Source of the DNA: Utricularia gibba
Taxonomy: Eukaryota > Streptophyta > Magnoliopsida > Lamiales > Lentibulariaceae
NCBI GenBank assembly: GCA_002189035.1
Contig: NEEC01000011.1
Span: 3,286,001 to 3,350,000, forward strand
Length of the DNA stretch: 64,000 bases
Direction: 5' to 3'
Shown: positions 5,300-64,000 of the stretch, piece by piece
How positions within the stretch are numbered: position 1 is the stretch's first letter
Layout of the letters: the number at the start of each line of letters is the position of its first letter
Notes under the pieces: generated by a model
Told to the model about the DNA's origin: nothing
Seen by the model: only the letters and a program-made list of their open reading frames with translations
The model's database searches: none
Program-made: the position numbers and the translations under genes

Positions 5300-5317
5300 A
5301 AGAAGAAGAAGAAGAAG
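5300..5317 (-). repeat. (CTT)6 microsatellite in the pectinesterase leader
   Basis: Six perfect AAG triplets on the plus strand, CTT on the minus strand, lie about 60 bp upstream of the putative pectinesterase start. CTT-rich tracts are frequent in plant 5' leaders, so this is probably transcribed with the gene. Confidence 0.7.
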
Positions 5318-6859: not shown

Positions 6860-8200
6860 TCGGTTTTTGAGTCTATTCCTTACAATGCTATGATTGTGTT
6901 CCGACCTAGAGGATGTCCCCAATCCTAATGTTGGTCTTGTGTACCATTCAGTTGATATACTTCAAACTGAGATGTGTCAGTTTTTACACGACATACCTTT
7001 TAGAAGCTCTTTCTTCAGTTGTGCCACAAAATGGCCAAAGCGTTCGCAGCGATGTGACTCACGACACCTGACTCGACATGAATGTGATTTCTTGCTTGCA
7101 AAACATAGACGTTTCATTTGTTGATGTGAAATTTCGGTTTTTGAGGCAATCACTTGCAATGTTACAGGTGGGTTCCGACCCAGGGGACGTCCCTAAACCT
7201 CATGCTAGCCTCATGCATCGTTCGATTTCTAGTCGATATCTTTCAAACAAAGATGGGTCACGTTGTGCACGACATACCGTTTTGAAGCTCGTTGCGAGCC
7301 GCTCATCTTTCATGTTGAATGCCTTTTCGTCCGAGCATGTATCCGAGCTTGAATGATTGCCTTATGTTAGTCTTCAGTTATGCCACAAAGTGGCCACGAT
7401 GAAAATCGGGACACCTGACTTGATGCGAATGTGATTTTTTGCTTCCAAAACTTACACGTTTCATTTGATGATATGAAATTTCAGTTTTCAAGGTGATCCC
7501 TTGCAATGATATAGGTGGCTTACGACCTAGGGGACATCCCCAAACCTCATGCTGACCTCGTGCGCCATTTGGTTTTTAGTTGATATCTTTAAAATCATGA
7601 TGAGTCACGCTGCACATGGCATACCGTTTCGATACTCATTCCGAGCCGATCATCTTTTGTATTGAAAGATTCTTTTTCCGAAGATGCTTCAGAGCTCGAA
7701 TTATTGTCTCATGTTAGTCTACCGTCGTGCCACAAAATGGCCAAAATGTTCGTGACGATGCGACTCGTGACACCTGACTTGACACGAATGTCATTTCTTA
7801 CTCGCAAAACATACGCGTTTCATTTGACAATGTGAAATTTCGGTTTTCGAGGTGATCCCTTGCAATGCTATGAGTGGGTTCGGACAAAGGAGACATCCTC
7901 AAACCTCATGGTCGCCTTATGCACTGTTCATTTCTAGTCGATATCATTTAAAATGTGATGAGTCACACTAGGCATGAAATACATTTTGGAAGCTCGTTCC
8001 GAGCCGATCATCTTTTTTGTTGAAAGATTCCTCGTCCAGGGATGCTCCAAAGCTAAAATTATTGCCTTATGCTAGCCTCCAAATGTACCAAAAAGTATCA
8101 AAGACATTCACGACGATGTGATTCTAGACTCTCGACTCGATACAAATGTGATTTCTCGTATGCAAAACATATGCATTTCATTGGAAGGTGTGAAATTTTC
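6860..8200. repeat. Decayed long-form units at the array rim
   Basis: The first four units are clearly related to the array but highly diverged. The first is shortened (about 275 bp), having lost the segment between TAGAAGCTC and TTTCTTCAGTTGTGCC. The following ones are about 355-360 bp. They carry a roughly 12 bp insert between TTCCGACC and ACCTCATG that is absent from about 8,215 onward; at 7184-7193 it is the perfect palindrome GGGACGTCCC, with related forms at about 6910, 7530 and 7889. CpG sites of interior units often appear as TG or CA here. Confidence 0.85.
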
Positions 8201-8730
8201 GTTTTCGAGGCGAACCCTCACAATGCCACGAGTGTGTTCCTACCCACACCTGATGCAGGCCTCATGCACCATTCGGTATCTTGTCGATATATTGCAAACC
8301 GTAATGAGTCACGCTGGGCACAACATACCGCATCGAAGCTCATTCCGAGCCTGTCATCTTCTGTGTTGGAAGCTTCGTCGTCTAAAGATTTATCAAGGCT
8401 CGAATTATTGCCTTATATTTGCCTTCAATTGTGCCACAAAGTGGCCACGACGTTCGCGACGATGCGACTCGGGACTTTTGATTCGACACGAATGTGATTT
8501 CTTGCTTGCAAAACATATGCATTTCATTGGAAGGTATGAAAGTTTCGTTTTCAAGGCGATCCCTTACAATGCCATGGGTGTGTGCCTCCTACCCACACTT
8601 GATGGAGGCCTCGTGCACCGTTCGGTATCTTGGCGATATCTTGCAAACCGAGATGAGTCACGCTGCGCACGGAATACCGTTTCGAAGCTCATTCTAGGGC
8701 GGTCATCTTCCGTGTTGGAGGCTTTGTCGA

Positions 8731-8750
8731 CCGACGATGTTTTCGAGGCG
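8731..8750. repeat. Deletion junction in a satellite unit (unit about 185 bp long)
   Basis: The sequence jumps from CGACGATGT (about offset 170) straight to TTTCGAGGCGATCCC (end of the unit), so about 170 bp are missing between the unit starts near 8,570 and 8,755. Confidence 0.75.
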
Positions 8751-9557
8751 ATCCCTTGCAATGCAACGTGTGTGTTCCAAAACACACCTGATGCAGGCCT
8801 CGTGCACCATTCTGTATTTTGTTGATATCTTGAAAACCGTGATGAGCCACGTTCCGCACGACACACCGTTTCGAAGCTCATTTTGAGGCACTCATCTTCC
8901 GTTTTGGAAGCTTCGTCGTCCGACGATATATCAGAGCTGGAATTATTGCCTTATATTAGCCTTCAATTGTGCCACAAAGTGGCCACGATGTTCGCGATGA
9001 TGCGACCTCGGACTTCCGATTCGACGCGAATGGGATTTCTCGCTTTCAAGACATATGGATTTCATTGGTGGGTTTGAAACTTTCGTTTTAGAGGCTGTCC
9101 CTTACAATGCCACGGGTGTGTTCCAACCCACACCTGATGCAGGCCTCGTGCACCATTCCGTATTTTGTCGATATCTTGAATACCGTGATGAGCCACGTTG
9201 CGCACGACACACCGTTTCGAAGCTCATTCCAGGGCGGTCATCTTCCGTTTTTGAAGCTTCGTCGTCCGACGATGTATCAGAGATCGAATTATTGCCTAAT
9301 GTTAGCCTTCAATTGTGCCAAAAAGTGGCCACGATGTTCGCGACGATGCGACTCAGGGAATCCGATTCGACGCGAATGTGATTTCCCGCTTGCAAAACAT
9401 ATGCCTTTCATTGGAAGGTGTGAAATTTTCGTTTTTTAGACGATCCCTTACAATGCCACGGTTGTGTTCGAACCCGCACCTGATGTAGGCCTTGTGCACC
9501 ATTCCGTATTTTTTTGATATCCTAAAAACCGTGATGAGCCACGTTGCGCATGACACA

Positions 9558-9580
9558 CGGTTTCGAAGCTCTAATTATTG
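9558..9580. repeat. Deletion junction at shared AGCTC
   Basis: TTTCGAAGCTC from mid-unit continues directly into TAATTATTGCC, skipping roughly 70-85 bp that contain the HindIII-site segment. AGCTC occurs at both ends of the missing piece, which suggests microhomology-mediated loss. Confidence 0.75.
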
Positions 9581-10515
9581 CCTTATATTAGCCTTCAATT
9601 GTTCCACAAAGTGGCCACGACGTTCGCGATGATGCGACCTCGGACTTTCGATTCGACGCGAATGGGATTTCTCGCTTTCAAGACATATGGATTTCATTGG
9701 AAGGTGTGAAATTTTCGTTTTAGAGGCGATCCTTCACAATGCCATGGGTGTCTTCCAACCCACACCTGATGAAGGCCCCGTGCACCATTCCGTATTTTAT
9801 CGATATCTTGAAACCGTGATGAGCCACGTAGCGCACGACACACCGTTTCAAAGCTCATTCTAGGGCGGTCGTCTTCCGTTTTGGAAGCTTCGTCGTCCGA
9901 CGATATATCAGAGCTGGAATTATTGCCTTATATTAGCCTTCAATTGTGCCACAAAGTGGCCACGATGTTCGCGATGATGCGACCTCGGACTTCCGATTCG
10001 ACGCGAATGGGATTTCTCGCTTTCAAGACATATGGATTTCATTGGAGGGTTTGAAACTTTCGTTTTAGAGGCTGTCCCTTACAATGCCACGGGTGTGTTC
10101 CAACCCACACCTGATGCAGGCCTCGTGCATCATTACGTATTTTGTCGATATCTTGAAAACCGTGATGAGCCACGTTTCGCATGACATACCGTTTCGAAGC
10201 TCATTCCGAGGCGGTCATCATCCGTATTCGAAGCTTCGTCGTCCGAAAATATATCAGAGCTCGAATTATTGCCTTATATTACCCTTCAATTGTGCCACAA
10301 AGTGGCCACGACGTTCGCGACGATGCGACTCGGGGATTCCGATTCGACGCAAATGTGATTTCTCGTTTGCAAAACACATGCATTTCATTACAATGTGTGA
10401 AATTTTTCGTTTTTGAGGTGATCCCTTACAATGCCACGGTTGTGTTCGAACCCGCACCTGATGTAGGCCTTGTGCACCATTCCGTATTTTTTTGATATCC
10501 TAAAAACCGTGATGT

Positions 10516-10559
10516 AGGCCTGCATCAGGTGTGTTACAACCCACACCTGATGCAGGCCT
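10516..10559. repeat. 18 bp perfect inverted repeat at a rearranged junction in the array
   Basis: The arms AGGCCTGCATCAGGTGTG (10516-10533) and its exact reverse complement (10542-10559) flank an 8 bp loop. The right arm is the normal satellite sequence around CCACACCTGATGCAGGCCT; the left arm is the same sequence turned round and placed after a unit that stops at CCGTGATG. This is the only inverted satellite segment noticed in the array. Confidence 0.9.
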
Positions 10560-12149
10560 CGTGCACCATTCTGTATTTTGTCGATATCTTCGAAACCGTG
10601 ATGAGCCGTGTTGCGCATGGCACACCGTTTCGAAGCTCATTCCGAGCGGTCATCTTCTGTGTTGGAAGCTTCGTCGTCCGACGATGTATCAGAGCTCGAA
10701 TTATTGCCTTATATTAGCCTTCAATTGTGCCACAAAGTGGCCACGACGTTCGCGATGATGCGACCTCGGACTTCCGATTCGACGCGAATGGGATTTCTCG
10801 CTTTCAAGACATATGGATTTCATTGGAAGGTTTGAAACTTTCGTTTTAGAGGCTGTCCCTTACAATGCCACGGGTGTGTTCCAACCCACACTTGATGCAT
10901 GCCTCGTGCACCATTACGTATTTTGTCGATATCTCGAAAACCATAATGAGCCACGTTTCGCACGACATACCGTTTCGAAGCTCATTCCGAGGCGGTCATC
11001 ATCCGTATTGGAAGCTTCGTCGTCCGACAATATATCAGAGCTCGAATTATTGCCTTATATTACCCTTCAATTGTGCCACAAAGTGGCCACGACGTTCGCG
11101 ACGATGCGACTCGGGGCTTCTGATTCGACGCGAATGTGATTTCTCCCTTGTAAAACATATACATTTCATTGGAAGGTGTGAAATTTTCGTTTTTGTGGCG
11201 ATCCCTTACAATGGCACGGTTGTGTTCCAACCCACACCTGATGTAGGCCTCGTGCACCATTCCGTATTTTATCGATATCTCGAAAACCATAATGAGCCAC
11301 GTTTCGCACGACATACCGTTTCGAAGCTCATTCCGAGGCGGTCATCATCCGTTTTGGAAGCTTCGTCGTCCGACAATATATCAGAGCTCGAATTATTGCC
11401 TTATATTAGCCTTCAATTGTGTAACAAAGTGGCCACAACGTTCGCGACGATGCGACTCAGGGCATCCGATTCGACGCAAATGTGATTTCTCGCTTGCAAA
11501 AGTTATGCATTTCATTGGAAGGTGTGAAATTTTTCGTTTTTGAGGCGATCCCTTACAATGGCACGGTTGTGTTCCTACCCACACCTGATGCAGGCCTCGT
11601 GCACCATTCCGTATTTTATCGATATCTTGAAACCGTGATGAGCCACGTAGCGCACGACACACCGTTTCAAAGCTCATTCTAGGGCGGTCATCTTCCGTTT
11701 TGGAAGCTTCGTCGTCCGACAATATATCAGAGCTCGAATTATTGACTTATATTAGCCTTCAATTGTGCCACAAAGTGGCCACGACGTTCGCGATGATGCG
11801 ACCTCGGACTTCCGTTTCGACGCGAATGGGATTTCTCGATTTCAAGACATATGGATTTCATTGGAAGGTTTGAAACATTCGTTTTAGAGGCTGTCCCTTA
11901 CAATGCCACGGGTGTGTTCCAACCCACACTTGATGCATGCCTCGTGCACCATTACGTATTTTGTCGATATCTTGAAAACCATGATGAGCCACGTTTCGCA
12001 CAACACACCGTTTTGAAGCTCATTCTAGGGCGGTCATCTTCCGTTTTGGAAGCTTCGTCGTCCGACAATATATCAGAGCTCGAATTATCGCCTTATATTA
12101 GCCTTCAATTGTGCCACAAAGTGGCCACGACGTTCGCGATGATGCGACC

Positions 12150-12166
12150 TCGGACTTCCTTAAAAG
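12150..12166. repeat. Deletion junction in a satellite unit
   Basis: CGGACTTCC, which belongs late in the unit, runs directly into TTAAAAGCGTGATGAGCC, which belongs about offset 75 of the next unit. The unit end and the beginning of the next unit are therefore missing. TCC is shared by both sides. Confidence 0.75.
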
Positions 12167-14944
12167 CGTGATGAGCCGCGTTGCGCATGACACACCGTTT
12201 CGAAGCTCATTCCGAGGCGGTCATCTTCCATTTTGCAAGCTTTGTCGTTCGACGATGTATCAGAGCTCGAATTATTGCCTTATGTTACCCTTCAATTGTG
12301 CCACAAAGTGGCCACATCGTTCGCGACGATGCGACTCGGGGCTTCTGATTCGACGCGAATGTGATTTCTCCCTTGTAAAACATATACATTTCATTGGAAG
12401 GTGTGAAATTTTCGTTTTTGAGGCGATCCCTTACAATGCCACGGTTGTGTTCCAACCCACACCTGATGCAAGCCTCGGGCACCATTACGTATTTTATTGA
12501 TATCTTGAAAACCGTGATGACCCACGTAGCGCACGACACACCGTTTCGACGCTCATTCCGAGGCGGTCATCTTCCGTTTTGGAAGCTTCGTCGTCCGACA
12601 ATATATCAGAGCTCGAATTATTGCGTTATATTAGCCTTTAATTGAGCCACAAAGTGGCCACGACGTTCGGGATGATGCGACCTCGGACTTCCGATTCGAC
12701 GCGAATGGGATTTCTCGCTTTCAAAACATATGGATTTCATTGGAAGGTGTGAAATTTTCGTTTTAGAGGCGATCCCTTACAATGCCTCGAGTGTGTTCCA
12801 ACCCACACCTGATGCAGGCCTCGTGCACCATTCCGTATTTTGTCGATATCTTGAAAACCGTGATGAGCCACGTTTCGCGCGACACACCGTTTCGAAGCTC
12901 ATTCCAGGGCAGTAATCTTCCGTTTTTGAAGCTTCGTCGTCCAACAATATATCAGAGCTCGAATTATTGCCTTATATTACCCTTCAATTGTGCGACAAAG
13001 TGCCCACGACGTTCGCGACGATGCGACTTAGGGCTTCCGATTCGACGCAAATGTGATTTCTCGCTTGCAAAACACATGCATTTCATTGGAAGGTGTGAAA
13101 TTTTTGTTTTAGAGGCGATCCCTTACAATGCCACGGTTGTGTTCCAACCCACACCTGATGAAGGCCTCGTGCACCATTCCGTATTTTCTCGATATCTTGA
13201 ATACCGTGATGAGCCACGTTGCGCACGACACACCGTTTCGAAGCTCATTCCAGGGCGGTCATCTTCCGTTTTTGAAGCCTCGTCGTCCGACAATATATCA
13301 GAGCTGGAATTATTACCTTATATTACCCTTCAATTGTGCCACAAAGTAGCCACGACGTTCCCGATGATGCGACCTTGGACTTCCGATTCGACGCGAATGG
13401 GATTTCTTGCTTTCAAGACATATGGATTTCATTGGAAGGTGTGAAACTTTCGTTTTCGAGGCGACCCCTTACAATGCCACGAGTGTGTTCCAACCCACAC
13501 ATGATGCAGGCCTCGTGCACCATTACGTATTTTGTCGATATCTTGAAAACCGTGATGAGCCACGTTTCGCAGGACATACGGTTTCGAAGCTCATTCCGAG
13601 TCGGTCATCTTCCGTTTTGGAAGCTTCGTCGTCCGACGATGTATCAGAGCTCGAATTATTGCCTTATATTAGCCTTCAATTGTTCCACAAAGTGGCCACG
13701 ACGTTCGCGACGATGCGACTCAGGGCTTCTGATTCGACGCGAATGTGATTTCTCCCTTGTAAAACATATACATTTCATTGGAAGGTGTGAAATTTTCGTT
13801 TTCGAGGTGATCCCTTTCAATGCCACGGGTGTGTTCCAACCCACACCTTATGTATGCCTCGTTCCTCGTTCAATATCTTGTCGATATCTTGCAAACCGTG
13901 ATGAGTCACGCTACGCACAGCATACCGTATCAAAGCTCATTCCGAGCCGGTCATCTTCCGTGTTGGAAGCTTCGTAATCCGACAATGTATGAGAGCTCTA
14001 ATCATTGCCTTATATTAGCCTTCAATTGTGCCAAAAAGTGGCCACGACGTTCGTGAGGATGCGCCTCGGGACTTTCGATTTGACGTGAATGGGATTTCTC
14101 GTTGCAAAACATACGCATTTCATTGGAAGGTTTGAAATTTTCGTTTTTGAGGCGATCCCTTACAATGGTACGGTTGTGTTCCAACCCACACCTAATGCAG
14201 GCCTCGTGCACCATTCTGTATTTTGTCGATATCTTGAAAACCGTGATGAGCCACGTTCCGCACGACACACCGTTTCGAAGCTCATTTTGAGGCAGTCATC
14301 TTCCGTTTTGGAAGCTTCGTCGTCCGACGATGTATCAGAGCTCGAATTATTGCCTTATATTAGCCTTCAATTGTGCCACAAAGTGGCCACGACGTTCCTG
14401 ATGATGCGACCTGGGACTTCCGATTCGACGCGAATGGGATTTCTCGCTTTCAAGACATATGGATTGCATTGGAAGGTGTGAAATTTTCGTTTTAGTGGCG
14501 ATCCTTCACAATGCCATGGGTGTGTTCCAACCCACACCTGATGAAGGCCTCGTGCACCATTCCGTATTTTGTCGATATCCTTAAAAGCGTGATGAGCCGC
14601 GTTGCGCATGACACACCGTTTCGAAGCTCATTCCGAGGCGGTCATCTTCCGTTTTGCAAGCTTTGTCGTTCGACGATGTATCAGAGCTCGAATTATTGCC
14701 TTATATTAGCCTTCAATTGTGCCACAAAATGGCCACGACGTTCGGGATGATGCGACCTCGGACTTCCGATTCGACGCGAATGGGATTTCTCGCTTTCAAA
14801 ACATATGGATTTCATTGGAAGGTGTGAAATTTTTCGTTTTTGAGGCGATCCCTTACAATGCCACGGTTGTGTTCCAACCCACACCTGATGCAGGCCTCGT
14901 GCACCATTCCGTATTTTCTTGATATCTTGAATACCGTGATGAGC

Positions 14945-16330
14945 CACGTTGCGCACGACACACCGTTTCGAAGCTCATTCCAGGGCGGTCATCTTCCGTT
15001 TTTGAAGCTTTGTCGTCCGACAATATATCAGAGCTCGAATAATTTCCTTATATTACCCATCAATTGTGCCACAAAGTGGCCACGACGTTCGCGATGATGC
15101 GACTCTGGGCTTCCAATTCGACGCAAATGTGATTTCTCGCTTGCAAAACACATGCATTTCATTGGAAGGTGTGAAATTTTCGTTTTAGAGGCGATCCCTT
15201 ACAATGCCACGGTTGTGTTCCAACCCACACCTGATGTAGGCCTCGTGCACCATTCCGTATTTTATCGATATCTTCGAAACCGTGATGAGCCACGTAGCGT
15301 ACGACACACTGTTTCAAAGCTCATTCCAGGGCGGTCATCTTCCGTTTTGGAAGCTTCATTGTCCGACAATATATCAGAGCTGGAATTATTGCCTTATATT
15401 ACCCTTCAATTGTGCCAAAAAGTGGCCACGACGTTCGCGATGATGCGACCTCGGACTTCCGATTTGACGCGAATGGGATTTCTCGGTTTCAAAACATATG
15501 GATTTTATTGGAAGGTGTGAAATTTTCGTTTTAGAGGCGTTCCCTTACAATGCCACGAGTGTGTTCCAACCCACACCTGATGCAGGCCTTGTTCACCATT
15601 CTGTATTTTGTCGATATCTTGAAAACCGTGATGAGCCACGTTCCGCACGACACCCCGTTTCGAAGCTCATTTTGAGGCAGTCATCTTCCGTTTTGGAAGC
15701 TTCGTCGTCCGACGATGTATTAGAGCTCGAATTATTGCCTTATATTAGTCTTCAATTGTGCCACAAAGTGGCCACGACGTTCGCGATGATGCGACCTCGG
15801 ACTTCCGATTCGACGCGAATGGGATTTCTCGCTTTCAAGACATATGGATTTCATTGGAAGGTGTGGAATTTCGTTTTAGTGGCGATCCTTCACAATGCCA
15901 TGGGTGTGTTCCAACCCACACCTTATGAAGGCCCCGTGCACCATTCCGTATTTTGTCGATATCCTTAAAAGCGTGATGAGCCGCGCTGCGCATGACACAC
16001 CGTTTCGAAGCTCATTCCAGAGCGGTCATCTTCCGTTTTTGAAGCTTTGTCGTTCGACGATGTATCAGAGATGGAATTATTGCCTTATGTTAGCCTTCAA
16101 TTGTGCCACAAAGTGGCCACGACGTTCGCGATGATGCAAATCGGGACTTCCGATTCGACGCGACTAGGATTTCTATCTTGCAAAACATATGCATTTCATT
16201 GGAAGGTGTGAAATTTTCGTTTTCGAGGCGATCCCTTACAATGCAACGTGTTTGTTCCAACCCACACCTAATGCAGGCCTCGTGCACCATTCCGTATTTT
16301 ATCGATATCTTGAAAACCGTGATGAGCCAC
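14945..16330. repeat. Satellite block that recurs about 3.45 kb further right (first copy)
   Basis: This four-unit stretch shares rare variants, in the same order, with about 18,390-19,775: CGAATAATTTCC followed by TATTACCCAT, GTAGCGTACGAC, CTTCATTGTCC, GAGGCGTTCC, CACCCCGTTTCG, CCTTAAAAGCGTG with GCGCTGCGCATG, and GCGACTAGGATTTC. The offset is 3,443-3,448 bp, about ten units. The second copy differs mainly by one- to few-base deletions. Confidence 0.75.
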
Positions 16331-17020
16331 GTTCCGCACGACACCCGTTTCGAAGCTCATTTTGAGGCAGTCATCTTCCGTTTTGGAAGCTTCGTCGTCC
16401 GACGATGTATTAGAGCTCGAATTATTGCCTTATATTAGCCTTCAATTGTGCCACAAAGTGGCCACGACGTTCGCGATGATGCGACCTCGGACTTCCGATT
16501 CGACGCGAATGGGATTTCTCGCTTTCAAGACATATGGATTTCATTGGAAGGTGTGGAATTTCGTTTTAGTGGCGATCCTTCACAATGCCATGGGTGTGTT
16601 CCAACCCACACCTTATGAAGGCCCCGTGCACCATTCCGTATTTTGTCGATATCCTTAAAAGCGTGATGAGCCGCGCTGCGCATGACACACCGTTTCGAAG
16701 CTCATTCCAGAGCGGTCATCTTCCGTTTTTGAAGCTTTGTCGTTCGACGATGTATCAGAGATGGAATTATTGCCTTATGTTAGCCTTCAATTGTGCCACA
16801 AAGTGGCCACGACGTTCGCGATGATGCAAATCGGGACTTCCGATTCGACGCGACTAGGATTTCTATCTTGCAAAACATATGCACTTCATTGGAAGGTGTG
16901 AAATTTTCGTTTTCGAGGCGATCCCTTACAATGCAACGTGTTTGTTCCAACCCACACCTGATGCAGGCCTCGTGCACCATTCCGTATTTTATCGATATCT
17001 TGAAAACCGTGATGAGCCAC
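15640..17020. repeat. Tandem duplication of a 690 bp satellite dimer
   Basis: About 15,640-16,329 and 16,330-17,019 are nearly identical at an offset of 690 bp (two units). They share peculiarities such as the shortened GTGTGGAATTTCG, GATCCTTCACAATGCC and GCGACTAGGATTTC. Only a few substitutions were seen, for example CTAATGCAGG versus CTGATGCAGG and GCATTTCATT versus GCACTTCATT, so the event is recent compared with the general divergence of the units. Confidence 0.85.
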
Positions 17021-18389
17021 GTTTCGAACGACACACCGTTTCGAAGCTCATTCCGAGGCGGTCATCTTCCGTTTCGCAAGCTTTGTCGTTCGACAATATA
17101 TCAGAGCTCGAATTATTGCCTTATATTAGCCTTCAATTGTGCCACAAAGTGGCCACGACGTTCGCGATGATGCGACCTCGGACTTCCGATTCGACGCGAA
17201 TGGGTTTTCTCGCATTCAAGACATATGGATTTCATTGGAAGGTATGAAATTTTTGTTTAAGAGGCGAACCCTTACAATGCCACGGTTGTGTTCCAACCCA
17301 CACCTGATGCAGGCCTCGTGCACCATTCCGTATTTTGTAAATATCTTGAAAACCGTGATGAGCCTTGTTGCACACGACACACCGTTTCGAAGCTCATTCC
17401 AGAGCGGCCATCTTCCGTTTTCGAAGCTTCGTCGTTCGACGATGTATCAGAGATCGAATTATTGCCTTATATTAGCCTTCAATTGTGCCACAAAGTGGCC
17501 ACGACGTACGTGATGATGCGACTCGGGGCTTCCAATTCGACGCAAATGTGATTTTTCGCTTGCAAAAGTTATGCATTTCATTGGAAGGTGTGAAATTTTT
17601 GTTTTTGAGGCGATCCCTTACAATGGCACGGTTGTGTTCCAACCCACACCTGATGTAGGCCTCGTGCACCATTCCGTATTTTATCGATATCTTGAAAACC
17701 GTGATGAGCCACGTTTCGCACGACACACCGTTTCGAAGCTCATTCCGAGGCGGTCATCTTCCGTTTCGCAAGCTTTGTCGTTCGACAATATATCAGAGCT
17801 CGAATTATTGCCTTATATTAGCCTTCAATTGTGCCACAAAGTGGCCACGACGTTCGCGATGATGCGACCTCGGACTTCCGATTCGACGCGAATGGGTTTT
17901 CTCGCATTCAAGACATATGGATTTCATTGGAAGGTATGAAATTTTTGTTTAAGAGGCGAACCCTTACAATGCCACGGTTGTGTTCCAACCCACACCTGAT
18001 GTAGGCCTCGTGCACCATTCCGTATTTTATCGATATCTTGAAAACCGTGATGAGCCACGTTTCACACGACACACCGTTTCGAAGCTCATTCCGAGGCGGT
18101 CATCTTCCGTTTCGCAAGCTTTGTCGTTCGACAATATATCAGAGCTCGAATTATTGCCTTATATTAGCCTTCAATTGTGCCACAAAGTGGCCACGACGTT
18201 CGCGATGATGCGACCTCGGAATTCCGATTCGACGCGAATGGGATTTCTCGCTTTCAAAACATATGGATTTCATTGGAAGGTGTGAAATTTTCGTTTTGAG
18301 GCGATCCCTTACAATGCCACGAGTGTGTTCCAACCCACACATGAGGCCTTGTTCACCATTCGTATTTTGTCGATATCTTGAAAACCGTG

Positions 18390-19775
18390 ATTAGCCACGT
18401 TGCGCACGACACACCGTTTCGAAGCTCATTCCAGGCGGTCATCTTCCGTTTTTGAAGCTTTGTCGTCCGACAATATATCAGAGCTCGAATAATTTCCTTA
18501 TATTACCCATCAATTGTGCCACAAAGTGGCCACGACGTTCGCGATGATGCGACTCGGGCTTCCAATTCGACGCAAATGTGATTTCTCGCTTGCAAAACAC
18601 ATGCATTTCATTGGAAGGTGTGAAATTTTCGTTTTAGAGGCGATCCCTTACAATGCCACGGTTGTGTTCCAACCCACACCTGATGTAGGCCTCGTGCACC
18701 ATTCCGTATTTTATCGATATCTTCGAAACCGTGATGAGCCACGTAGCGTACGACACACGTTTGAAAGCTCATTCAAGGGCGGTCATCTTCCGTTTTGGAA
18801 GCTTCATTGTCCGACAATATATCAGAGCTGGAATTATTGCCTTATATTACCCTTCAATTGTGCCAAAAAGTGGCCACGACGTTCGCGATGATGCGACCTC
18901 GGACTTCCGATTCGACGCGAATGGATTTCTCGCTTTCAAAACATATGGATTTCATTGGAAGGTGTGAAATTTTCGTTTTAGAGGCGTTCCCTTACAATGC
19001 CACGAGTGTGTTCCAACCCACACCTGATGCAGGCCTTGTTCACCATTCTGTATTTTGTCGATATCTTGAAAACCGTGATGAGCCACGTTCCGCACGACAC
19101 CCCGTTTCGAAGCTCATTTTGAGGCAGTCATCTTCCGTTTTGGAAGCTTCGTCGTCCGACGATGTATTAGAGCTCGAATTATTGCCTTATATTACCCTTC
19201 AATTGTGCCACAAAGTGGCCACGACGTCGCGATGATGCGACCTCGGACTTCCGATTCGACGCGAATGGGATTTCTCGCTTTCAAGACATATGGATTTCAT
19301 TGGAAGGTGTGAAATTTTTTTAGTGGCGATCCTTCACAATGCCATGGGTGTGTTCCAACCCACACCTGATGAAGGCCCCGTGCACCATTCCGTATTTTGT
19401 CGATATCCTTAAAAGCGTGATGAGCCGCGCTGCGCATGACACACCGTTTCGAAGCTCATTCCAGAGCGGTCATCTTCCGTTTTTGAAGCTTTGTCGTTCG
19501 ACGATGTATCAGAGATGGAATTATTGCCTTATGTTAGCCTTCAATTGTGCCACAAAGTGGCCACGACGTTCGCGATGATGCGAAAAGGAACTTCCGATTC
19601 GACGCGACTAGGATTTCTATCGTGCAAAACATATGCATTTCATTGGAAGGTGTGAAATTTTCGTTTTCGAGGCGATCCCTTACAATGCAACGTGTGTGTT
19701 CCAACCCACACTGATGCAGGCCTCGTGCACCATTCCGTATTTTATCGATATCTTGAAAACCGTGATGAGCCGCGT
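18390..19775. repeat. Second copy of the 14.95-16.33 kb satellite block
   Basis: Carries the same series of rare variants as the first copy, about 3.45 kb away. Extra small deletions are obvious, such as CACACGTTTGAAAGC for CACACTGTTTCAAAGC, AATGGATTTC for AATGGGATTTC, and GACGTCGCG for GACGTTCGCG. Confidence 0.75.
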
Positions 19776-21279: not shown

Positions 21280-21345
21280 GTTTCGCGATGATGCGACTCT
21301 TCCGATTCGACGCGAATGGATTTCTCGCTTTCAAAGCTCATTCTA
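21280..21345. repeat. Truncated satellite units with a TTTCAAA junction
   Basis: One unit is shortened around 21,280-21,300, losing part of the GTGGCCACGACG segment and of the CTCGGA segment. It then jumps from CTCGCTTTCAAA near its end to CAAAGCTCATTC near offset 120 of the next unit. TTTCAAA (21329-21335) is common to both sides, so about 190 bp were lost at a 7 bp microhomology. Confidence 0.8.
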
Positions 21346-30300: not shown

Positions 30301-30599
30301 ATTGCCTTATATTACCCTTCAATGTGCCACAAAGTGGCCACGACGTTCGCGATGATGCGACTCGGACTTCCGATTCGACGCGAATGGATTTCTCGCTTTC
30401 AAAACATATGCATTTCATTGGAAGTGTGAAATTTTCGTTTTGAGGCGATCCCTTACAATGCCACGGTTGTGTTCCAACCCACACCTGATGTAGGCCTCGT
30501 GCACCATTCCGTATTTTATCGATATCTTGAAAACCGTGATGAGCCACGTTTCACACGACACACCGTTTCGAAGCTCATTCCGAGGCGGTCATCTTCCGT

Positions 30600-30705
30600 T
30601 TCGAAGCGTCGACAATATATCAGAGCTCGAATTATTGCTTCAATTGTGCCACAAAGTGGCCACGAATGATGCGAGAATTTATAAGAAGCTTCGATCAGAG
30701 CTGGA
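30600..30705. repeat. Scrambled satellite junction with about 20 bp of atypical sequence
   Basis: Three losses cluster here: at GAAGCGTCGACAATAT, at ATTGCTTCAATTG and after CACGAATGATGCGAG. The last is followed by AATTTATAAGAAGCTTCG, which does not match the unit until AAGCTTCG, before the array resumes at ATCAGAGCTGG. Confidence 0.7.
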
Positions 30706-48904: not shown

Positions 48905-48950
48905 GATGATCTTTTTTGAACTTCCCGAATCAAGGAAATTGCCTTATATT
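48905..48950. repeat. Satellite junction with about 25 bp of atypical sequence
   Basis: After TTCGCGATGAT comes CTTTTTTGAACTTCCCGAATCAAGGAA in place of the usual unit; the array continues at ATTGCCTTATATTACC. A large part of one unit is missing and the bridge matches the satellite only weakly. Confidence 0.7.
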
Positions 48951-51900: not shown

Positions 51901-54900
51901 TGAAAACCGTGATGAGCCACGTTTCGCACGACACACCGTTTCGAAGCTCATTCCAGGGTCATCTTCCGTTTTGGAAGCTTCGTCGTCCGACAATATATCA
52001 GAGCTCGAATTATTGCCTTATATTAGCCTTCAATTGTGCCACAAAGTGGCCACGACGTTCGCGATGATGCGACCTCGGACTTCCGATTCGACGCGAATGG
52101 GTTTTCTCGCATTCAAGACATATGGATTTCATTGGAAGGTATGAAATTTTTGTTTTAGAGGCGAACCCTTACAATGCCACGGTGTGTTCCAACCCACACC
52201 TGATGCAGGCCTCGTGCACCATTCCGTATTTTGTAAATCTTGAAAACCGTGATGAGCCTTGTTGCACACGACACACCGTTTCGAAGCTCATTCCGAGGCG
52301 GTCATCTTCCGTTTGAAGCTTGTCGTTCGACAATATATCAGAGCTCGAATTATTGCCTTATATTAGCCTTCAATTGTGCCACAAAGTGGCCACGACGTTC
52401 GCGATGATGCGACCTCGGACTTCCGATTCGACGCGAATGGGATTTCTCGCTTCAAGACATATGGATTTCATTGGAAGGTGTGAAATTTTTGTTTAAGAGG
52501 CGAACCCTTACAATGCCACGGTTGTGTTCCAACCCACACCTGATGCAGGCCTCGTGCACCATTCCGTATTTTATCGATATCTTGAAAACCGTGATGAGCC
52601 ACGTTTCACACGACACACCGTTTCGAAGCTCATTCCAGGCGGTCATCTTCCGTTTGAAGCTTGTCGTCGACAATATATCAGAGCTCGAATTATTGCCTTA
52701 TATTAGCCTTCAATTGTGCCACAAAGTGGCCACGACGTTCGCGATGATGCGACCTCGGACTTCCGATTCGACGCGAATGGGTTTTCTCGCTTTCAAACAT
52801 ATGCATTTCATTGGAAGGTGTGAAATTTTTTGTTTTTGAGGCGATCCCTTACAATGCCACGGTTGTGTTCCAACCCACACCTGATGCAGGCCTCGTGCAC
52901 CATTCCGTATTTTATCGATATCTTGAAACCGTGATGAGCCACGTTGCGCACGACACACCGTTTCGAAGCTCATTCCAGGCGGTCATCTTCCGTTTTGAAG
53001 CTTTCGTCCGACAATATATCAGAGCTCGAATTTTTGCCTTATATTACCCTTCAATTGTGCCACAAAGTGGCCACGACGTTCGCGATGATGCGACTCGGAC
53101 TTCCGATTCGACGCGAATGGGATTTCTCGCTTTCAAAAACATATGGATTTCATTGGAAGGTGTGAAATTTTTGTTTTTGAGGCGACCCTTACAATGCCAC
53201 GGTTGTGTTCCAACCCACACCTGATGCAGGCCTCGTGCACCATTCCGTATTTTATATCTTGAAAACCGTGATGAGCCACGTTCACACGACACACCGTTTC
53301 GAAGCTCATTCCGAGGCGGTCATCTTCCGTTTCGCAAGCTTTGTCGTTCGACAATATATCAGAGCTCGAATTATTGCCTTATATTAGCCTTCAATTGTGC
53401 CACAAAAGTGGCCACGACGTTCGCGATGATGCGACCTCGGACTTCCGATTCGACGCGAATGGGTTTCTCGCATTCAAGACATATGATTTCATTGGAAGGT
53501 ATGAAATTTTTGTTTTAGAGGCGAACCCTTACAATGCCACGAGTGTGTTCCAACCCACACCTGATGCAGGCCTCGTGCACCATTCCGTATTTTCGATATC
53601 TTGAAAACCGTGATGAGCCGTTGCACACGACACACCGTTTCGAAGCTCATTCCAGAGCGGTCATCTTCCGTTTTGAAGCTTCGTCGTCCGACGATGTATC
53701 AGAGATCGAATTATTGCCTTATATTAGCCTTCAATTGTGCCACAAAGTGGCCACGACGTTCGCGATGATGCGACTCGGGCTTCCGATTCGACGCAAATGT
53801 GATTTCTCGCTTGCAAAACATATGCATTTCATTGGAAGGTGTGAAATTTTTGTTTTGGCGATCCCTTACAATGCCACGGTTGTGTTCCAACCCACACCTG
53901 ATGCAGGCCTCGTGCACCATTCCGTATTTTGATATCTTGAAAACCGTGATGAGCCACGTTGCGCACGACACACCGTTTCGAAGCTCATTCCAGGGCGGTC
54001 ATCTTCCGTTTTTGAAGCTTCGTCGTCCGACAATATATCAGAGCTCGAATTATTGCCTTATATTACCCTTCAATTGTGCCACAAAGTGGCCACGACGTTC
54101 GCGATGATGCGACCTCGGACTTCCGATTCGACGCGAATGGTTTCTCGCTTCAAAGACATATGGATTTCATTGGAAGGTGTGAAATTTTTGTTTTAGAGGC
54201 GAACCCTTACAATGCCACGGTTGTGTTCCAACCCACACCTGATGCAGGCCTCGTGCACCATTCCGTATTTTGCGATATCTTGAAAACCGTGATGAGCCTT
54301 GTTGCACACGACACACCGTTTCGAAGCTCATTCCAGCGGTCATCTTCCGTTTTTGAAGCTTCGTCGTCCGACGATGTATCAGAGCTCGAATTATTGCCTT
54401 ATATTAGCCTTCAATTGTGCCACAAAGTGGCCACGACGTTCGCGATGATGCGACTCGGGCTTCCAATTCGACGCAAATGGATTTCTCGCTTCAAAACATA
54501 TGCATTTCATTGGAAGGTGTGAAATTTTTTTTTTGGCGATCCCTTACAATGCACGGTTGTGTTCCAACCCACACCTGATGCAGGCCTCGTGCACCATTCC
54601 GTATTTTATCGATATCTTGAAAACCGTGATGAGCCACGTTTCACACGACACACCGTTTCGAAGCTCATTCCGAGGCGGTCATCTTCCGTTTTGAAGCTTG
54701 TCGTTCGACAATATATCAGAGCTCGAATTATTGCCTTATATTAGCCTTCAATTGTGCCACAAAGTGGCCACGACGTTCGCGATGATGCGACCTCGACTTC
54801 CGATTCGCGAATGGATTTCTCGCATTCAAACATATGGATTTCATTGGAAGGTATGAAATTTTTGTTTAGAGGCGAACCCTTACAATGCCACGGTGTGTTC

Positions 54901-57900
54901 CAACCCACACCTGATGCAGGCCTCGTGCACCATTCCGTATTTTATCGATATCTTGAAAACCGTGATGAGCCACGTGCACACGACACACCGTTTCGAAGCT
55001 CATTCCGAGCGGTCATCTTCCGTTTTGAAGCTTTGTCGTTCGACAATATATCAGAGCTCGAATTATTGCCTTATATTAGCCTTCAATTGTGCCACAAAGT
55101 GGCCACGACGTTCGCGATGATGCGACCTCGGACTTCCGATTCGACGCGAATGGGTTTTCTCGCATTCAAGACATATGATTTCATTGGAAGGTATGAAATT
55201 TTTGTTTTAGAGGCGAACCCTTACAATGCCACGGTTGTGTTCCAACCCACACCTGATGAAGGCCTCGTGCACCATTCCGTATTTTGTCGATATCTTGAAA
55301 ACCGTGATGAGCCGTTGCACACGACACACCGTTTCGAAGCTCATTCCAGAGCGGTCATCTTCCGTTTTTTGAAGCTTCGTCGTCCGACGATGTATCAGAG
55401 ATCGAATTATTGCCTTATATTAGCCTTCAATTGTGCCACAAAGGCCACGACGTCGCGATGATGCGACTCGGGCTTCCAATTCGACGCAAATGTGATTTCT
55501 CGCTTGCAAAATATGCATTTCATTGGAAGGTGTGAAATTTTTGTTTTTGAGGCGATCCCTTACAATGCACGGTTGTGTTCCAACCCACACCTGATGCAGG
55601 CCTCGTGCACCATTCCGTATTTTATCGATATCTTGAAAACCGTGATGAGCCACGTTTCACACGACACACCGTTTCGAAGCTCATTCCAGGGCGGTCATCT
55701 TCCGTTTTGAAGCTTCGTCGTCCGACAATATATCAGAGCTCGAATTATTGCCTTATATTACCCTTCAATTGTGCCACAAAGTGGCCACGACGTTCGCGAT
55801 GATGCGACCTCGGACTTCCGATTCGACGCGAATGGTTTTCTCGCTTCAAGACATATGGATTTCATTGGAAGGTATGAAATTTTTGTTTAGAGGCGAACCC
55901 TTACAATGCCACGGTTGTGTTCCAACCCACACCTGATGCAGGCCTCGTGCACCATTCCGTATTTTGTAAATATCTTGAAAACCGTGATGAGCCACGTTGC
56001 GCACGACACACCGTTTCGAAGCTCATTCCAGGGCGGTCATCTTCCGTTTTTGAAGCTTCGTCCGACAATATATCAGAGCTCGAATTATTGCCTATATTAG
56101 CCTTCAATTGTGCCACAAAGTGGCCACGACGTTCGCGATGATGCGACTCGGACTTCCGATTCGACGCGAATGGATTTCTCGCTTTCAAAACATATGCATT
56201 TCATTGGAAGGTGTGAAATTTTTCGTTTTTGAGGCGATCCCTTACAATGCCACGGTTGTGTTCCAACCCACACCTGATGCAGGCCTCGTGCACCATTCCG
56301 TATTTTGATATCTTGAAAACCGTGATGAGCCGTTGCACACGACACACCGTTTCGAAGCTCATTCCGAGCGGTCATCTTCCGTTTGAAGCTTTTGTCGTTC
56401 GACAATATATCAGAGCTCGAATTATTGCCTTATATTAGCCTTCAATTGTGCCACAAAGTGGCCACGACGTTCGCGATGATGCGACCTCGGACTTCCGATT
56501 CGACGCGAATGGGTTTTTCTCGCTTCAAACATATGGATTTCATTGGAAGGTATGAAAATTTTTTTTAGAGGCGAACCCTTACAATGCCACGGTGTGTTCC
56601 AACCCACACCTGATGCAGGCCTCGTGCACCATTCCGTATTTTTGTAAATATCTTGAAAACCGTGATGAGCCTTGTTGCACACGACACACCGTTTCGAAGC
56701 TCATTCCAGAGCGGTCATCTTCCGTTTTTGAAGCTTCGTCGTCCGACGATGTATCAGAGCTCGAATTATTGCCTTATATTAGCCTTCAATTGTGCCACAA
56801 AGTGGCCACGACGTCGCGATGATGCGACTCGGGCTTCCAATTCGACGCAAATGTGATTTCTCGCTTGCAAAACATATGCATTTCATTGGAAGGTGTGAAA
56901 TTTTTTGTTTTTGAGGCGATCCCTTACAATGCCACGGTTGTGTTCCAACCCACACCTGATGCAGCCTCGTGCACCATTCCGTATTTTGTCGATATCTTGA
57001 AAACCGTGATGAGCCGTTTGCACGACACACCGTTTCGAAGCTCATTCCGAGGCGGTCATCTTCCGTTTGAAGCTTTGTCGTTCGACAATATATCAGAGCT
57101 CGAATTATTGCCTTATATTAGCCTTCAATTGTGCCACAAAGTGGCCACGACGTTCGCGATGATGCGACCTCGGACTTCCGATTCGACGCGAATGGGTTTT
57201 CTCGCATTCAAGACATATGGATTTCATTGGAAGGTATGAAATTTTTGTTTTAGAGGCGAACCCTTACAATGCCACGGTGTGTTCCAACCCACACCTGATG
57301 CAGGCCTCGTGCACCATTCCGTATTTTGTAAATATCTTGAAAACCGTGATGAGCCTTGTTGCACACGACACACCGTTTCGAAGCTCATTCCGAGGCGGTC
57401 ATCTTCCGTTTCGAAGCTTGTCGTTCGACAATATATCAGAGCTCGAATTATTGCCTTATATTAGCCTTCAATTGTGCCACAAAGTGGCCACGACGTTCGC
57501 GATGATGCGACCTCGGACTTCCGATTCGACGCGAATGGGTTTCTCGCTTCAAACATATGATTTCATTGGAAGGTGTGAAATTTTTGTTTTAGAGGCGATC
57601 CCTTACAATGCCACGGTTGTGTTCCAACCCACACCTGATGCAGGCCTCGTGCACCATTCCGTATTTTATCGATATCTTGAAAACCGTGATGAGCCACGTT
57701 GCACACGACACACCGTTTCGAAGCTCATTCCAGGCGGTCATCTTCCGTTTTGAAGCTTTGTCGTTCGACAATATATCAGAGCTCGAATTATTGCCTTATA
57801 TTAGCCTTCAATTGTGCCACAAAGTGGCCACGACGTTCGCGATGATGCGACCTCGGACTTCCGATTCGACGCGAATGGTTTTCTCGCTTCAAGACATATG

Positions 57901-60900
57901 GATTTCATTGGAAGGTATGAAATTTTTGTTTTAGAGGCGAACCCTTACAATGCCACGGTTGTGTTCCAACCCACACCTGATGCAGGCCTCGTGCACCATT
58001 CCGTATTTTGTAAATATCTTGAAAACCGTGATGAGCCTTGTTGCACACGACACACCGTTTCGAAGCTCATTCCAGAGCGGTCATCTTCCGTTTTGAAGCT
58101 TCGTCGTCCGACGATGTATCAGAGATCGAATTATTGCCTTATATTAGCCTTCAATTGTGCCACAAAGTGGCCACGACGTACGCGATGATGCGACTCGGGG
58201 CTTCCAATTCGACGCAAATGTGATTTCTCGCTTGCAAAACATATGCATTTCATTGGAAGGTGTGAAATTTTTGTTTTTGAGGCGATCCCTTACAATGCCA
58301 CGGTTGTGTTCCAACCCACACCTGATGCAGGCCTCGTGCACCATTCCGTATTTTATCGATATCTTGAAAACCGTGATGAGCCACGTTTCGCACGACACAC
58401 CGTTTCGAAGCTCATTCAGGGCAGTCATCTTCCGTTTTGGAAGCTTCGTCGTCCGACAATATATCAGAGCTCGAATTATTGCCTTATATTACCCTTCAAT
58501 TGTGCCACAAAGTGGCCACGACGTTCGCGATGATGCGACCTGGACTTCCGATTCGACGCGAATGGGTTTTCTCGCATTCAAGACATATGGATTTCATTGG
58601 AAGGTATGAAATTTTTTTTTAGAGGCGAACCCTTACAATGCCACGGTGTGTTCCAACCCACACCTGATGCAGGCCTCGTGCACCATTCCGTATTTTGTCG
58701 ATATCTTGAAAACCGTGATGAGCCTTGTTGACACACCGTTTCGAAGCTCATTCCAGAGCGGTCATCTTCCGTTTTGAAGCTTTCGTCCGATGTATCAGAG
58801 CTCGAATTATTGCCTTATATTAGCCTTCAATTGTGCCACAAAGTGGCCACGACGTCGCGATGATGCGACTCGGCTTCCAATTCGACGCGCAAATGTGATT
58901 TCTCGCTTGCAAAAACATATGCATTTCATTGGAGGTGTGAAATTTTTTTTGAGGCGATCCCTTACAATGCCACGGTTGTGTTCCAACCCACACCTGATGC
59001 AGGCCTCGTGCACCATTCCGTATTTTATCGATATCTTGAAAACCGTGATGAGCCACGTTTCGCACGACACACCGTTTCGAAGCTCATTCCAGGCGGTCAT
59101 CTTCCGTTTTGAAGCTTCGTTCGACAATATATCAGAGCTCGAATTATTGCCTTATATTAGCCTTCAATTGTGCCACAAAGTGGCCACGACGTTCGCGATG
59201 ATGCGACCTCGGACTTCCGATTCGACGCGAATGGTTTTCTCGCATTCAAGACATATGGATTTCATTGGAAGGTATGAAATTTTGTTTTAGAGGCGAACCC
59301 TTACAATGCCACGGTGTGTTCCAACCCACACCTGATGCAGGCCTCGTGCACCATTCCGTATTTTGTAAATATCTTGAAAACCGTGATGAGCCTTGTTGCA
59401 CACGACACACCGTTTCGAAGCTCATTCCAGAGCGGTCATCTTCCGTTTTTGAAGCTTCGTCGTCCGACGATGTATCAGAGATCGAATTATTGCCTTATAT
59501 TAGCCTTCAATTGTGCCACAAAGTGGCCACGACGTCGCGATGATGCGACTCGGGGACTTCCAATTCGACGCAAATGTGATTTCTCGCTTGCAAACATATG
59601 CATTTCATTGGAAGGTGTGAAATTTTTGTTTTGAGGCGATCCCTTACAATGCCACGGTTGTGTTCCAACCCACACCTGATGCAGGCCTCGTGCACCATTC
59701 CGTATTTTTATCGATATCTTGAAAACCGATGAGCCACGTTTCACACGACACCGTTTCGAAGCTCATTCCGAGGCAGTCATCTTCCGTTTTGCAAGCTTGT
59801 CGTTCGACAATATATCAGAGCTCGAATTATTGCCTTATATTAGCCTTCAATTGTGCCACAAAGTGGCCACGACGTTCGCGATGATGCGACCTCGGACTTC
59901 CGATTCGACGCGAATGGTTTTCTCGCATTCAAGACATATGGATTTCATTGTGTTGAAATTTTTGTTTTAGAGGCGAACCCTTACAATGCCACGGTGTGTT
60001 CCAACCCACACCTGATGCAGGCCTCGTGCACCATTCCGTATTTTGTAAATATCTTGAAAACCGTGATGAGCCGTTGCACACGACACACCGTTTCGAAGCT
60101 CATTCCAGGCGGTCATCTTCCGTTTTGAAGCTTCGTCGTTCGACAATATATCAGAGCTCGAATTATTGCCTTATATTAGCCTTCAATTGTGCCACAAAGT
60201 GGCCACGACGTTCGCGATGATGCGACCTCGGACTTCCGATTCGACGCGAATGGGTTTCTCGCTTCAAACATATGGATTTCATTGGAAGGTGTGAAATTTT
60301 TGTTTTAGAGGCGATCCCTTACAATGCCACGGTTGTGTTCCAACCCACACCTGATGCAGGCCTCGTGCACCATTCCGTATTTTATCGATATCTTGAAAAA
60401 CCGTGATGAGCCACGTTTCACACGACACACCGTTTCGAAGCTCATTCCGAGGCGGTCATCTTCCGTTTCGCAAGCTTTGTCGTTCGACAATATATCAGAG
60501 CTCGAATTATTGCCTTATATTAGCCTTCAATTGTGCCACAAAGTGCCACGACGTTCGCGATGATGCGACCTCGGACTTCCGATTCGACGCGAATGGGTTT
60601 TCTCGCATTCAAACATATGGATTTCATTGGAAGGTATGAAATTTTTTTAGAGGCGAACCCTTACAATGCCACGGTTGTGTTCCAACCCACACCTGATGCA
60701 GGCCTCGTGCACCATTCCGTATTTTGTAAATATCTTGAAAACCGTGATGAGCCTTGTTGCACACGACACACCGTTTCGAAGCTCATTCCAGAGCGGTCAT
60801 CTTCCGTTTTTGAAGCTTCGTCGTCCGACGATGTATCAGAGCTCGAATTATTGCCTTATATTAGCCTTCAATTGTGCCACAAAGTGGCCACGACGTACGC

Positions 60901-63900
60901 GATGATGCGACTCGGGGCTTCCAATTCGACGCAAATGTGATTTCTCGCTTGCAAAAGATATGCATTTCATTGGAAGGTGTGAAATTTTTGTTTTTGAGGC
61001 GATCCCTTACAATGGCACGGTTGTGTTCCAACCCACACCTGATGCAGGCCTCGTGCACCATTCCGTATTTTTCGATATCTTGAAAACCGTGATGAGCCAC
61101 GTTGCGCACGACACACCGTTTCGAAGCTCATTCTAGGGCGGTCATCTTCCGTTTTGGAAGCTTCGTCGTCCGACAATATATCAGAGCTCGAATTATTGCC
61201 TTATATTACCCTTCAATTGTGCCACAAAGTGGCCACGACGTTCGCGATGATGCGACCTCGGACTTCCGATTCGACGCGAATGGATTTCTCGCTTCAAACA
61301 TATGGATTTCATTGGAAGGTGTGAAATTTTGTTTTAGAGGCGATCCCTTACAATGCCACGGTGTGTTCCAACCCACACCTGATGCAGGCCTCGTGCACCA
61401 TTCCGTATTTTGTCGATATCTTGAAAACCGTGATGAGCCCGTTGCACACGACACACCGTTTCGAAGCTCATTCCAGAGCGGTCATCTTCCGTTTTTGAAG
61501 CTTCGTCGTCCGACGATGTATCAGAGATCGAATTATTGCCTTATATTAGCCTTCAATTGTGCCACAAAGTGGCCACGACGTCGCGATGATGCGACTCGGG
61601 CTTCCAATTCGACGCAAATGTGATTTCTCGCTTGCAAAACATATGCATTTCATTGGAAGGTGTGAAATTTTGTTTTTGAGGCGATCCCTTACAATGCACG
61701 GTTGTGTTCCAACCCACACCTGATGCAGGCCTCGTGCACCATTCCGTATTTTATCGATATCTTGAAAACCGTGATGAGCCACGTTGCACGACACACCGTT
61801 TCGAAGCTCATTCCAGGCGGTCATCTTCCGTTTTGGAAGCTTCGTCGTCCGACAATATATCAGAGCTCGAATTATTGCCTTATATTAGCCTTCAATTGTG
61901 CCACAAAGTGGCCACGACGTTCGCGATGATGCGACCTCGGACTTCCGATTCGACGCGAATGGGATTTCTCGCTTTCAAAACATATGGATTTCATTGGAAG
62001 GTGTGAAATTTTTGTTTTTGAGGCGACCCTTACAATGCCACGGTGTGTTCCAACCCACACCTGATGCAGGCCTCGTGCACCATTCGTATTTTGTCGATAT
62101 CTTGAAAACCGTGATGAGCCTTGTTGCACACGACACACCGTTTCGAAGCTCATTCCGAGGCGGTCATCTTCCGTTTTGAAGCTTTGTCGTCCGACGATGT
62201 ATCAGAGCTCGAATTATTGCCTTATATTAGCCTTCAATTGTGCCACAAAGTGGCCACGACGTTCGCGATGATGCGACTCGGACTTCCGATTCGACGCGAA
62301 TGGGATTTCTCGCTTTCAAACATATGGATTTCATTGGAAGGTGTGAAATTTTTGTTTTAGAGGCGATCCCTTACAATGCCACGGTTGTGTTCCAACCCAC
62401 ACCTGATGCAGGCCTCGTGCACCATTCCGTATTTTATCGATATCTTGAAAACCGTGATGAGCCACGTTGCGCACGACACACCGTTTCGAAGCTCATTCCA
62501 GGCGGTCATCTTCCGTTTTGAAGCTTCGTCGTCCGACAATATATCAGAGCTCGAATTATTGCCTTATATTAGCCTTCAATTGTGCCACAAAGTGGCCACG
62601 ACGTTCGCGATGATGCGACCTCGGACTTCCGATTCGACGCGAATGGATTTCTCGCTTTCAAAAAACATATGATTTCATTGGAAGGTGTGAAATTTTTCGT
62701 TTTTGAGGCGATCCCTTACAATGCCACGGTTGTGTTCCAACCCACACCTGATGCAGGCCTCGTGCACCATTCCGTATTTTGTCGATATCTTGAAAACCGT
62801 GATGAGCCACGTTGCACACGACACACCGTTTCGAAGCTCATTCCAGGGTCATCTTCCGTTTTGAAGCTTCGTCGTCCGACAATATATCAGAGCTCGAATT
62901 ATTGCCTTATATTAGCCTTCAATTGTGCCACAAAGTGGCCACGACGTTCGCGATGATGCGACCTCGGACTTCCGATTCGACGCGAATGGGATTTCTCGCA
63001 TTCAAGACATATGGATTTCATTGGAAGGTATGAAATTTTTGTTTTAGAGGCGAACCCTTACAATGCCACGGTTGTGTTCCAACCCACACCTGATGCAGGC
63101 CTCGTGCACCATTCCGTATTTTGTAAATATCTTGAAAACCGTGATGAGCCTTGTTGCACACGACACACCGTTTCGAAGCTCATTCCAGAGCGGTCATCTT
63201 CCGTTTTTGAAGCTTCGTCGTCCGACGATGTATCAGAGCTCGAATTATTGCCTTATATTAGCCTTCAATTGTGCCACAAAGTGGCCACGACGTTCGCGAT
63301 GATGCGACTCGGGCTTCCAATTCGACGCAAATGGATTTCTCGCTTGCAAAACATATGCATTTCATTGGAAGGTGTGAAATTTTTGTTTTTGAGGCGATCC
63401 CTTACAATGCCACGGTTGTGTTCCAACCCACACCTGATGCAGGCCTCGTGCACCATTCCGTATTTTATCGATATCTTGAAACCGTGATGAGCCACGTGCG
63501 ACGACACACGTTTCAAAGCTCATTTCAGGCGGTCATCTTCCGTTTTGGAAGCTTCGTCGTCCGACAATATATCAGAGCGAATTATTGCCTTATATTACCC
63601 TTCAATTGTGCCAAAAGTGGCCACGACGTTCGCGATGATGCGACCTCGGACTTCCGATTCGACGCGAATTGGATTTCTCGCTTCAAAACATATGATTTCA
63701 TTGGAAGGTGTGAAATTTTCGTTTTAGAGGCGATCCCTTACAATGCCACGTTGTGTTCCAACCCACACCTGATGCAGGCCTCGTGCACCATTCCGTATTT
63801 TGTCGATATCTTGAAAACCGTGATGAGCCACGTTGCGCACGACACACCGTTTCGAAGCTCATTCCAGGCGGTCATCTTCCGTTTTTGAAGCTTCGTCGTC

Positions 63901-64000
63901 CGACGATGTATCAGAGCTCGAATTATTGCCTTATATTAGCCTTCAATTGTGCCACAAAGTGGCCACGACGTTCGCGATGATGCGACTCGGGGCTTCCGAT

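Follow-up and report, generated by a model that had tools for sequence, protein, structure and literature searches.

A 344 bp satellite family of Utricularia gibba with large, gene-flanked arrays 0.41–0.94 Mb from telomeres

The tandem repeat described here, with a unit of ~344 bp, is a new satellite family of U. gibba of a well-known kind, and its position is the interesting part. On balance we read it as a non-centromeric, heterochromatic satellite in a subterminal position that is homogenised separately on each chromosome, with a single large block on each of at least five of them; we give this reading an even chance of being correct. U. gibba serves as a model for extreme genome compaction, and a family of about 2 Mb, or ~2% of the genome, shows that this small genome does keep large satellite arrays. 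The stretch of DNA under analysis (64,000 bp, hereafter the window) comprises bases 3,286,001–3,350,000 of contig C255 (3,424,836 bp) in a PacBio assembly of 100,091,633 bp (100.09 Mb) and 516 contigs. The U. gibba PacBio assembly has been described as having a contig N50 of 3.4 Mb and 581 contigs (PMC5793159).

The array in the window and its neighbouring genes

Units of ~344 bp are arranged head to tail and in a single orientation from position 6,858 to the window end (64000). TRF reported one array at 12162–64000 (period 342, 150.5 copies, score 63609) and shorter, diverged stretches from 7019 to 12159, while an HMM of the unit, whose consensus is 344 bp long, gave 174–175 matches from 6858/6859 to 64000, on the + strand only and never interrupted by more than about 25 bp. 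The two methods agree with the first-pass annotation that this is a real tandem array in one orientation. The core array, of subfamily A, spans 12162..64000 on the + strand and holds ~150 units of 335–346 bp (TRF, HMM), with ~94% mutual identity and HMM scores of about 390–430 bits. Within the window the array shows a weak higher-order periodicity of 2 and of 8 units.

The array had also been said to start abruptly beside genes. Genes do adjoin it, but the edge is graded. The units nearest the genes (6858..9250, + strand) are degenerate or truncated, with HMM scores of 65–394 bits and 67–79% BLAST identity to other copies, and the first of them, at 6858–8016, match most weakly (65–267 bits). 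A transition zone of truncated and rearranged units follows (9254..12159, + strand; irregular junctions at 9571, 10514 and 12159; TRF periods of 187–346), and homogenised units start after ~9 kb. At its other end the array, previously given as 57 kb, runs off the window as stated, but it continues to the contig end at C255:3,424,836 and measures ~132 kb in total as assembled, the sequence from the window end to 3,396,001 having been read in part. C255 ends inside the array, and the assembly was not continued across it.

As for the HindIII and SacI sites noted in the unit, the array contains 162 of the 165 HindIII sites and 126 of the 127 SacI sites in the window, and the commonest HindIII spacings are 341–346 bp. 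A HindIII ladder of ~344 bp, proposed as a check on the array, is nevertheless expected from sequence for subfamilies A and C only. HindIII sites are absent from the sampled arrays of subfamily D, of subfamily E (C402) and of contig C354, so that a missing full ladder would be no refutation of the array. The unit is CpG-rich as described, with a CpG observed/expected ratio of 1.43 in the array versus 0.88 in the gene part of the window.

The first satellite unit lies 318 bp from a dirigent-family gene (6015..6541, − strand; Pfam PF03018, E = 2.3e-38). Further from the array are a pectinesterase gene region (3900..5330, − strand, limits approximate), recognised by its N-terminal exon (Pfam PF01095, E = 4.3e-16) and reading frames, and a gene with an RNA-recognition-like frame split by introns (1500..3000, − strand, limits approximate, from reading frames), which we take, from reading the frames, to resemble a nuclear poly(A)-binding protein. 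A second dirigent gene lies ~0.5 kb past the array on contig C496 (3888–4478 of the sampled segment), and dirigent genes are thus found on one strand within ~0.5 kb of array A on both sides (C255 and C496). The two encoded proteins are 39–41% identical and are not each other's closest relatives. Genome-wide, dirigent genes occur in only about ten places.

Subfamilies, chromosomal position and polarity

Genome-wide, 5,299 matches at three or fewer mismatches were counted for a 28-base core of the unit, and 0 for the reversed pattern. At 344 bp per unit this amounts to ~1.8 Mb, a figure that leaves out most of subfamily E, the divergent one; the assembled pieces of E (C402 1–140.5 kb; C410, 81.6 kb; C74, 84.5 kb; C382, 33.7 kb; parts of C385 and C411) add roughly 0.37 Mb. 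The arrays were read as samples and not in full length, and sizes of contigs taken as whole arrays are therefore upper estimates. Divergent edge copies and rare variants served as genome queries for array copies.

Comparison of per-contig unit consensuses defined at least five subfamilies. Identity between contigs is 90–96% in subfamily A (C255, C287, C496), 94% in B (C375, C354), 99% in C (C163, C178, C221, C508), 87–100% in D (C480, C107, C155, C180, C184, C194, C231, C290, C330, C331, C332) and 84–98% in E (C402, C385, C411); C410, C74 and C382 belong to E as well. Between subfamilies it is 60–84%, E being the most distant at 60–71%. Units within one contig range from 75–77% identity in E up to 98–99% in C and D, which suggests that E is old and that C and D are young; the B array on C375, 63 kb long, has ~82% identity between units. 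A pattern of this kind is what is usually seen in satellite arrays evolving locally, locus by locus, by unequal exchange. Contig C385 largely duplicates the C411 array edge, with near-identical matches (C385:25001–29000, C411:1–5500); it possibly represents another haplotype or a redundant contig. Isolated, diverged unit copies also lie far from the arrays, at C375:1920501–1923000 and at C402:2061154–2061837, the latter beside a Copia element.

The telomere repeat in the assembly is TTTAGGG. Each subfamily has one contig (for B, one assembled locus) that also bears a telomere. On C496 (A), the telomere is at base 1 and the array runs from ~609 kb to the contig end, a distance of 609 kb. On C375 (B), the array at 2,355.5–2,418.3 kb is 800 kb from the telomere at the right end. 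The array occupies the first 6.1 kb of C411 (E), 937 kb from the telomere at the end of 943 kb, and the first 2.8 kb of C480 (D), 736 kb from the telomere at the end of 739 kb. On C508 (C), it occupies the first 41.9 kb, and a degenerate telomeric repeat stands at the end of 456 kb, 414 kb away. The first-pass annotation had left a centromeric, pericentromeric or subtelomeric location open; the choice is now narrowed to arrays on at least five chromosomes, each 0.41–0.94 Mb away from one telomere. In none of the five telomere-anchored cases does the distance exceed 0.95 Mb, and the long-arm contigs stop short of the opposite telomere. None of the five adjoins the telomeric repeat, as a strictly subtelomeric array would, the separation being 414–937 kb. 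The + strand of the unit reads toward the telomere in all five, an agreement with a two-sided chance of 1/16 under random orientation in this small sample (n = 5).

Contigs break inside the arrays on both sides, and the arrays may explain several breaks in the assembly. C255 (3.42 Mb) ends in array A and C402 (2.63 Mb) in array E, and in both contigs the orientation of the array is as expected if they were joined to C496 and C411, respectively. This supports the view that C255 and C496, and likewise C402 and C411, are neighbours on one chromosome each. The pairing of C255 with C496 gains extra support from the same-strand dirigent genes on both sides of the array, given how few sites in the genome carry such genes.

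At the sampled edges of A, D and E, genes lie within 0.3–3 kb of the array, a few kb having been sampled per edge: dirigent and pectinesterase genes at the left edge of A, a dirigent gene at its right edge, a carbohydrate phosphorylase gene at the right edge of D and a group 1 glycosyltransferase gene at the right edge of E. The B array on C375 has a direct repeat of 422 bp, 82% identical, immediately outside both edges (positions 5094–5512 and 6358–6789 of two separate sampled segments), as if the array lay inside, or had arisen within, a tandem duplication. In the few kb compared, no flank is common to different subfamilies, as the phosphorylase, glycosyltransferase and dirigent genes do not recur; common flanks are found only within a subfamily, namely the dirigent pair of A and the 422 bp duplication of B.

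On C402, a few short samples contained a Copia reverse transcriptase at 2.06 Mb and a BED-finger/hAT-like frame at 2.30 Mb, together with a long gene-like reading frame at 1.0 Mb and a repetitive far contig end. These samples suggest that the TE-rich region of C402 is about 2 Mb or more from the array; since the TE-type sequences lie at that distance, a TE-rich pericentromere seems not to be located at the array.

Sequence character of the unit

The description of the unit as about two nucleosomes long holds for its length (344 = 2 × 172), but no duplication of ~172 bp is present within it. Its two halves align no better than shuffled sequence (score of 15.0 versus a shuffled mean of 15.8), and we therefore rejected a dimeric origin from a ~172 bp nucleosomal repeat. 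No inverted-repeat structure was found in the unit, and the unit had no match in plasmid records. Rfam gave no match to rRNA or any other RNA family in the window or the sampled arrays, which upholds the assignment to an unrecognised family; a match to an rDNA spacer, named beforehand as a result that would remove the novelty, was not found in the same sequences. An origin from rDNA, its spacer or another RNA was accordingly rejected, and the 5S-derived repeat on the same contig lies 3.29 Mb off, at its opposite end. The literature found on 344 bp satellites consisted only of animal papers, and the repeat annotation of the U. gibba genome paper may already list the family.

The 5S-derived repeat is a separate tandem array of a ~153–157 bp unit (C255:1–11500) with no Rfam match, in which each unit includes what seems to be the 3' end of 5S rRNA. 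This 5S-like motif recurs every ~545 bp on contigs C222–C229, probably as the normal 5S rDNA unit, and the C255 array looks like a deleted 5S repeat amplified beside the 5S locus. Another tandem array, with seven copies of a 1,369 bp unit at 99% identity, occupies the left end of C375 (1–9500).

Relative to the consensus, transition rates in the core array are 0.039 at CG, 0.060 at CHG, 0.018 at CHH and 0.018 at A/T sites; CG and CHG sites thus have 2.2× and 3.4× the rate of CHH or A/T sites, respectively. In all contigs tested, transitions are more frequent at CG than at CHH sites. This pattern suggests CG and CHG methylation in the past, and with CG and CHG transitions at two to several times the CHH frequency, the block is probably CG/CHG-methylated heterochromatin.

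CpG is over-represented in all subfamilies (observed/expected 1.0–1.5), and CAG/CTG sites are 2–10 fold scarce in all of them (0.09–0.58, versus 1.1–1.5 in the flanks), the flanking genes showing the opposite trend for both. CAG/CTG ratios below 1 were also obtained for two TE samples, the 5S-derived repeat and the 1,369 bp tandem repeat, and the depletion is therefore not decisive as a centromere marker. Maize CentC and Arabidopsis CEN178 are without CAG/CTG sites, and maize knob180 has three; the scarcity is possibly a general trait of some plant satellites.

Interpretation and comparison with known satellites

In the preferred reading, one large block would occupy the distal arm of each of at least five chromosomes, 0.41–0.94 Mb from the telomere, and would probably take the form of heterochromatin methylated at CG and CHG. 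Each block would stay locally uniform through unequal crossing-over and gene conversion, which would give rise to chromosome-specific subfamilies, with degenerate, truncated units arising at the edges, where exchange may be rare. Spread between chromosomes probably took place via exchange of like-oriented distal regions, or else one ancestral array was inherited by duplicated arms; either route would produce a constant unit direction relative to the nearest telomere. The telomere distances, the polarity and the gene flanks speak for a block that is subterminal or interstitial; they speak against a strictly subtelomeric location and, with less force, against a centromere.

The main rival reading, in which some five acrocentric chromosomes have these arrays as their functional centromeres, is a serious possibility to which we lend somewhat less credence. 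It draws on the single block per carrier chromosome with chromosome-specific homogenised subfamilies, as in centromeric satellites, on the large total (no less than 1.8 Mb, and ~0.37 Mb more from E), on a unit length of two nucleosomes, on contigs broken inside the arrays on both sides, and on the excess of CpG and scarcity of CAG/CTG in all subfamilies. No unit copy was found on the large telomere-bearing contigs C1–C4 among the best candidates scored; C3 and C4 carry a telomere at both ends, and C1 and C2 at one end in the available sequence. A later paper mentions four putatively entire chromosomes in the U. gibba assembly and, citing the genome paper, putative centromeric regions without satellite repeats (PMC8333044). 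A proponent of centromeric arrays would hold that they escaped notice, the published description being based on four fully assembled chromosomes with satellite-free centromeres. The resulting arrangement of two centromere kinds in one genome, satellite-free on the fully assembled chromosomes and gene-contacting 344 bp arrays on at least five acrocentrics, strikes us as rather unlikely. Against centromeric arrays, the sampled edges abut genes without flanking TE accumulation, the TE-rich samples of C402 lie 2 Mb from the array, all five arrays are <0.95 Mb from a telomere with one polarity, and array B on C375 extends over only 63 kb, with ~82% unit identity. The gene flanks and the TE sampling are the reasons for preferring the subterminal block.

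Alternatively, all five loci could be homeologues descended from a single ancestral array that whole-genome duplications in the lineage multiplied, and could persist passively with no present function. This would account for the shared polarity of the units on five arms, for their comparable telomere distances and for the stepwise divergence of the subfamilies, with E most distant at 60–71%; we hold it improbable, as the immediate flanks are dissimilar between subfamilies over the few kb compared. An assembly artefact, or a repeat from rDNA or a contaminant, might be suspected from the assembly breaks in the arrays and the uncertain copy number. This explanation is largely refuted by independent contigs, several of which join the arrays to plant genes and plant telomeres; the interspersed, diverged edge copies and the lack of an rRNA or other Rfam match in the window and sampled arrays speak against it as well, and we regard it as very improbable.

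The arrays offer FISH and ChIP probes for five chromosomes, and the family makes centromere marking in U. gibba directly testable. If the arrays are not centromeric, they represent an ordinary, though well-mapped, case of distal satellite evolution.

Among plant centromeric satellites, CentC, CentO, CEN178 and Gn7c161 likewise form one block per chromosome, with homogenised variants and a nucleosome-scale unit. CentC and CEN178 also resemble the U. gibba satellite in having few CAG/CTG sites. In contrast to these centromeric repeats, the U. gibba unit has twice the usual length without internal duplication, its sampled edges abut genes and it was found on only some chromosomes. Gn7c161 is the 161 bp centromeric satellite of Genlisea nigrocaulis, a member of the same family as Utricularia (PMC4542322). 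A relation to Genlisea tandem repeats was rejected, as three published primers (two for the 161 bp and one for a 144 bp repeat) do not align with the unit, the two Gn7c161 primers reaching best local scores of 8–9 of 24–25.

By description, the arrays can be likened to interstitial knobs such as maize knob180, which are also non-ribosomal satellite blocks in gene-bearing arms; the unit length differs, however, and nothing observed in U. gibba points to neocentromere activity or drive. Also by description, khipu of Phaseolus, the potato subtelomeric repeats and pAv34 of Beta form large distal arrays on several but not all arms, and they have local homogenisation and units of several hundred bp in common with the U. 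gibba satellite, those of pAv34 being 344–362 bp long. Unlike these repeats, the U. gibba array lies 0.41–0.94 Mb inside the telomere, with genes between.
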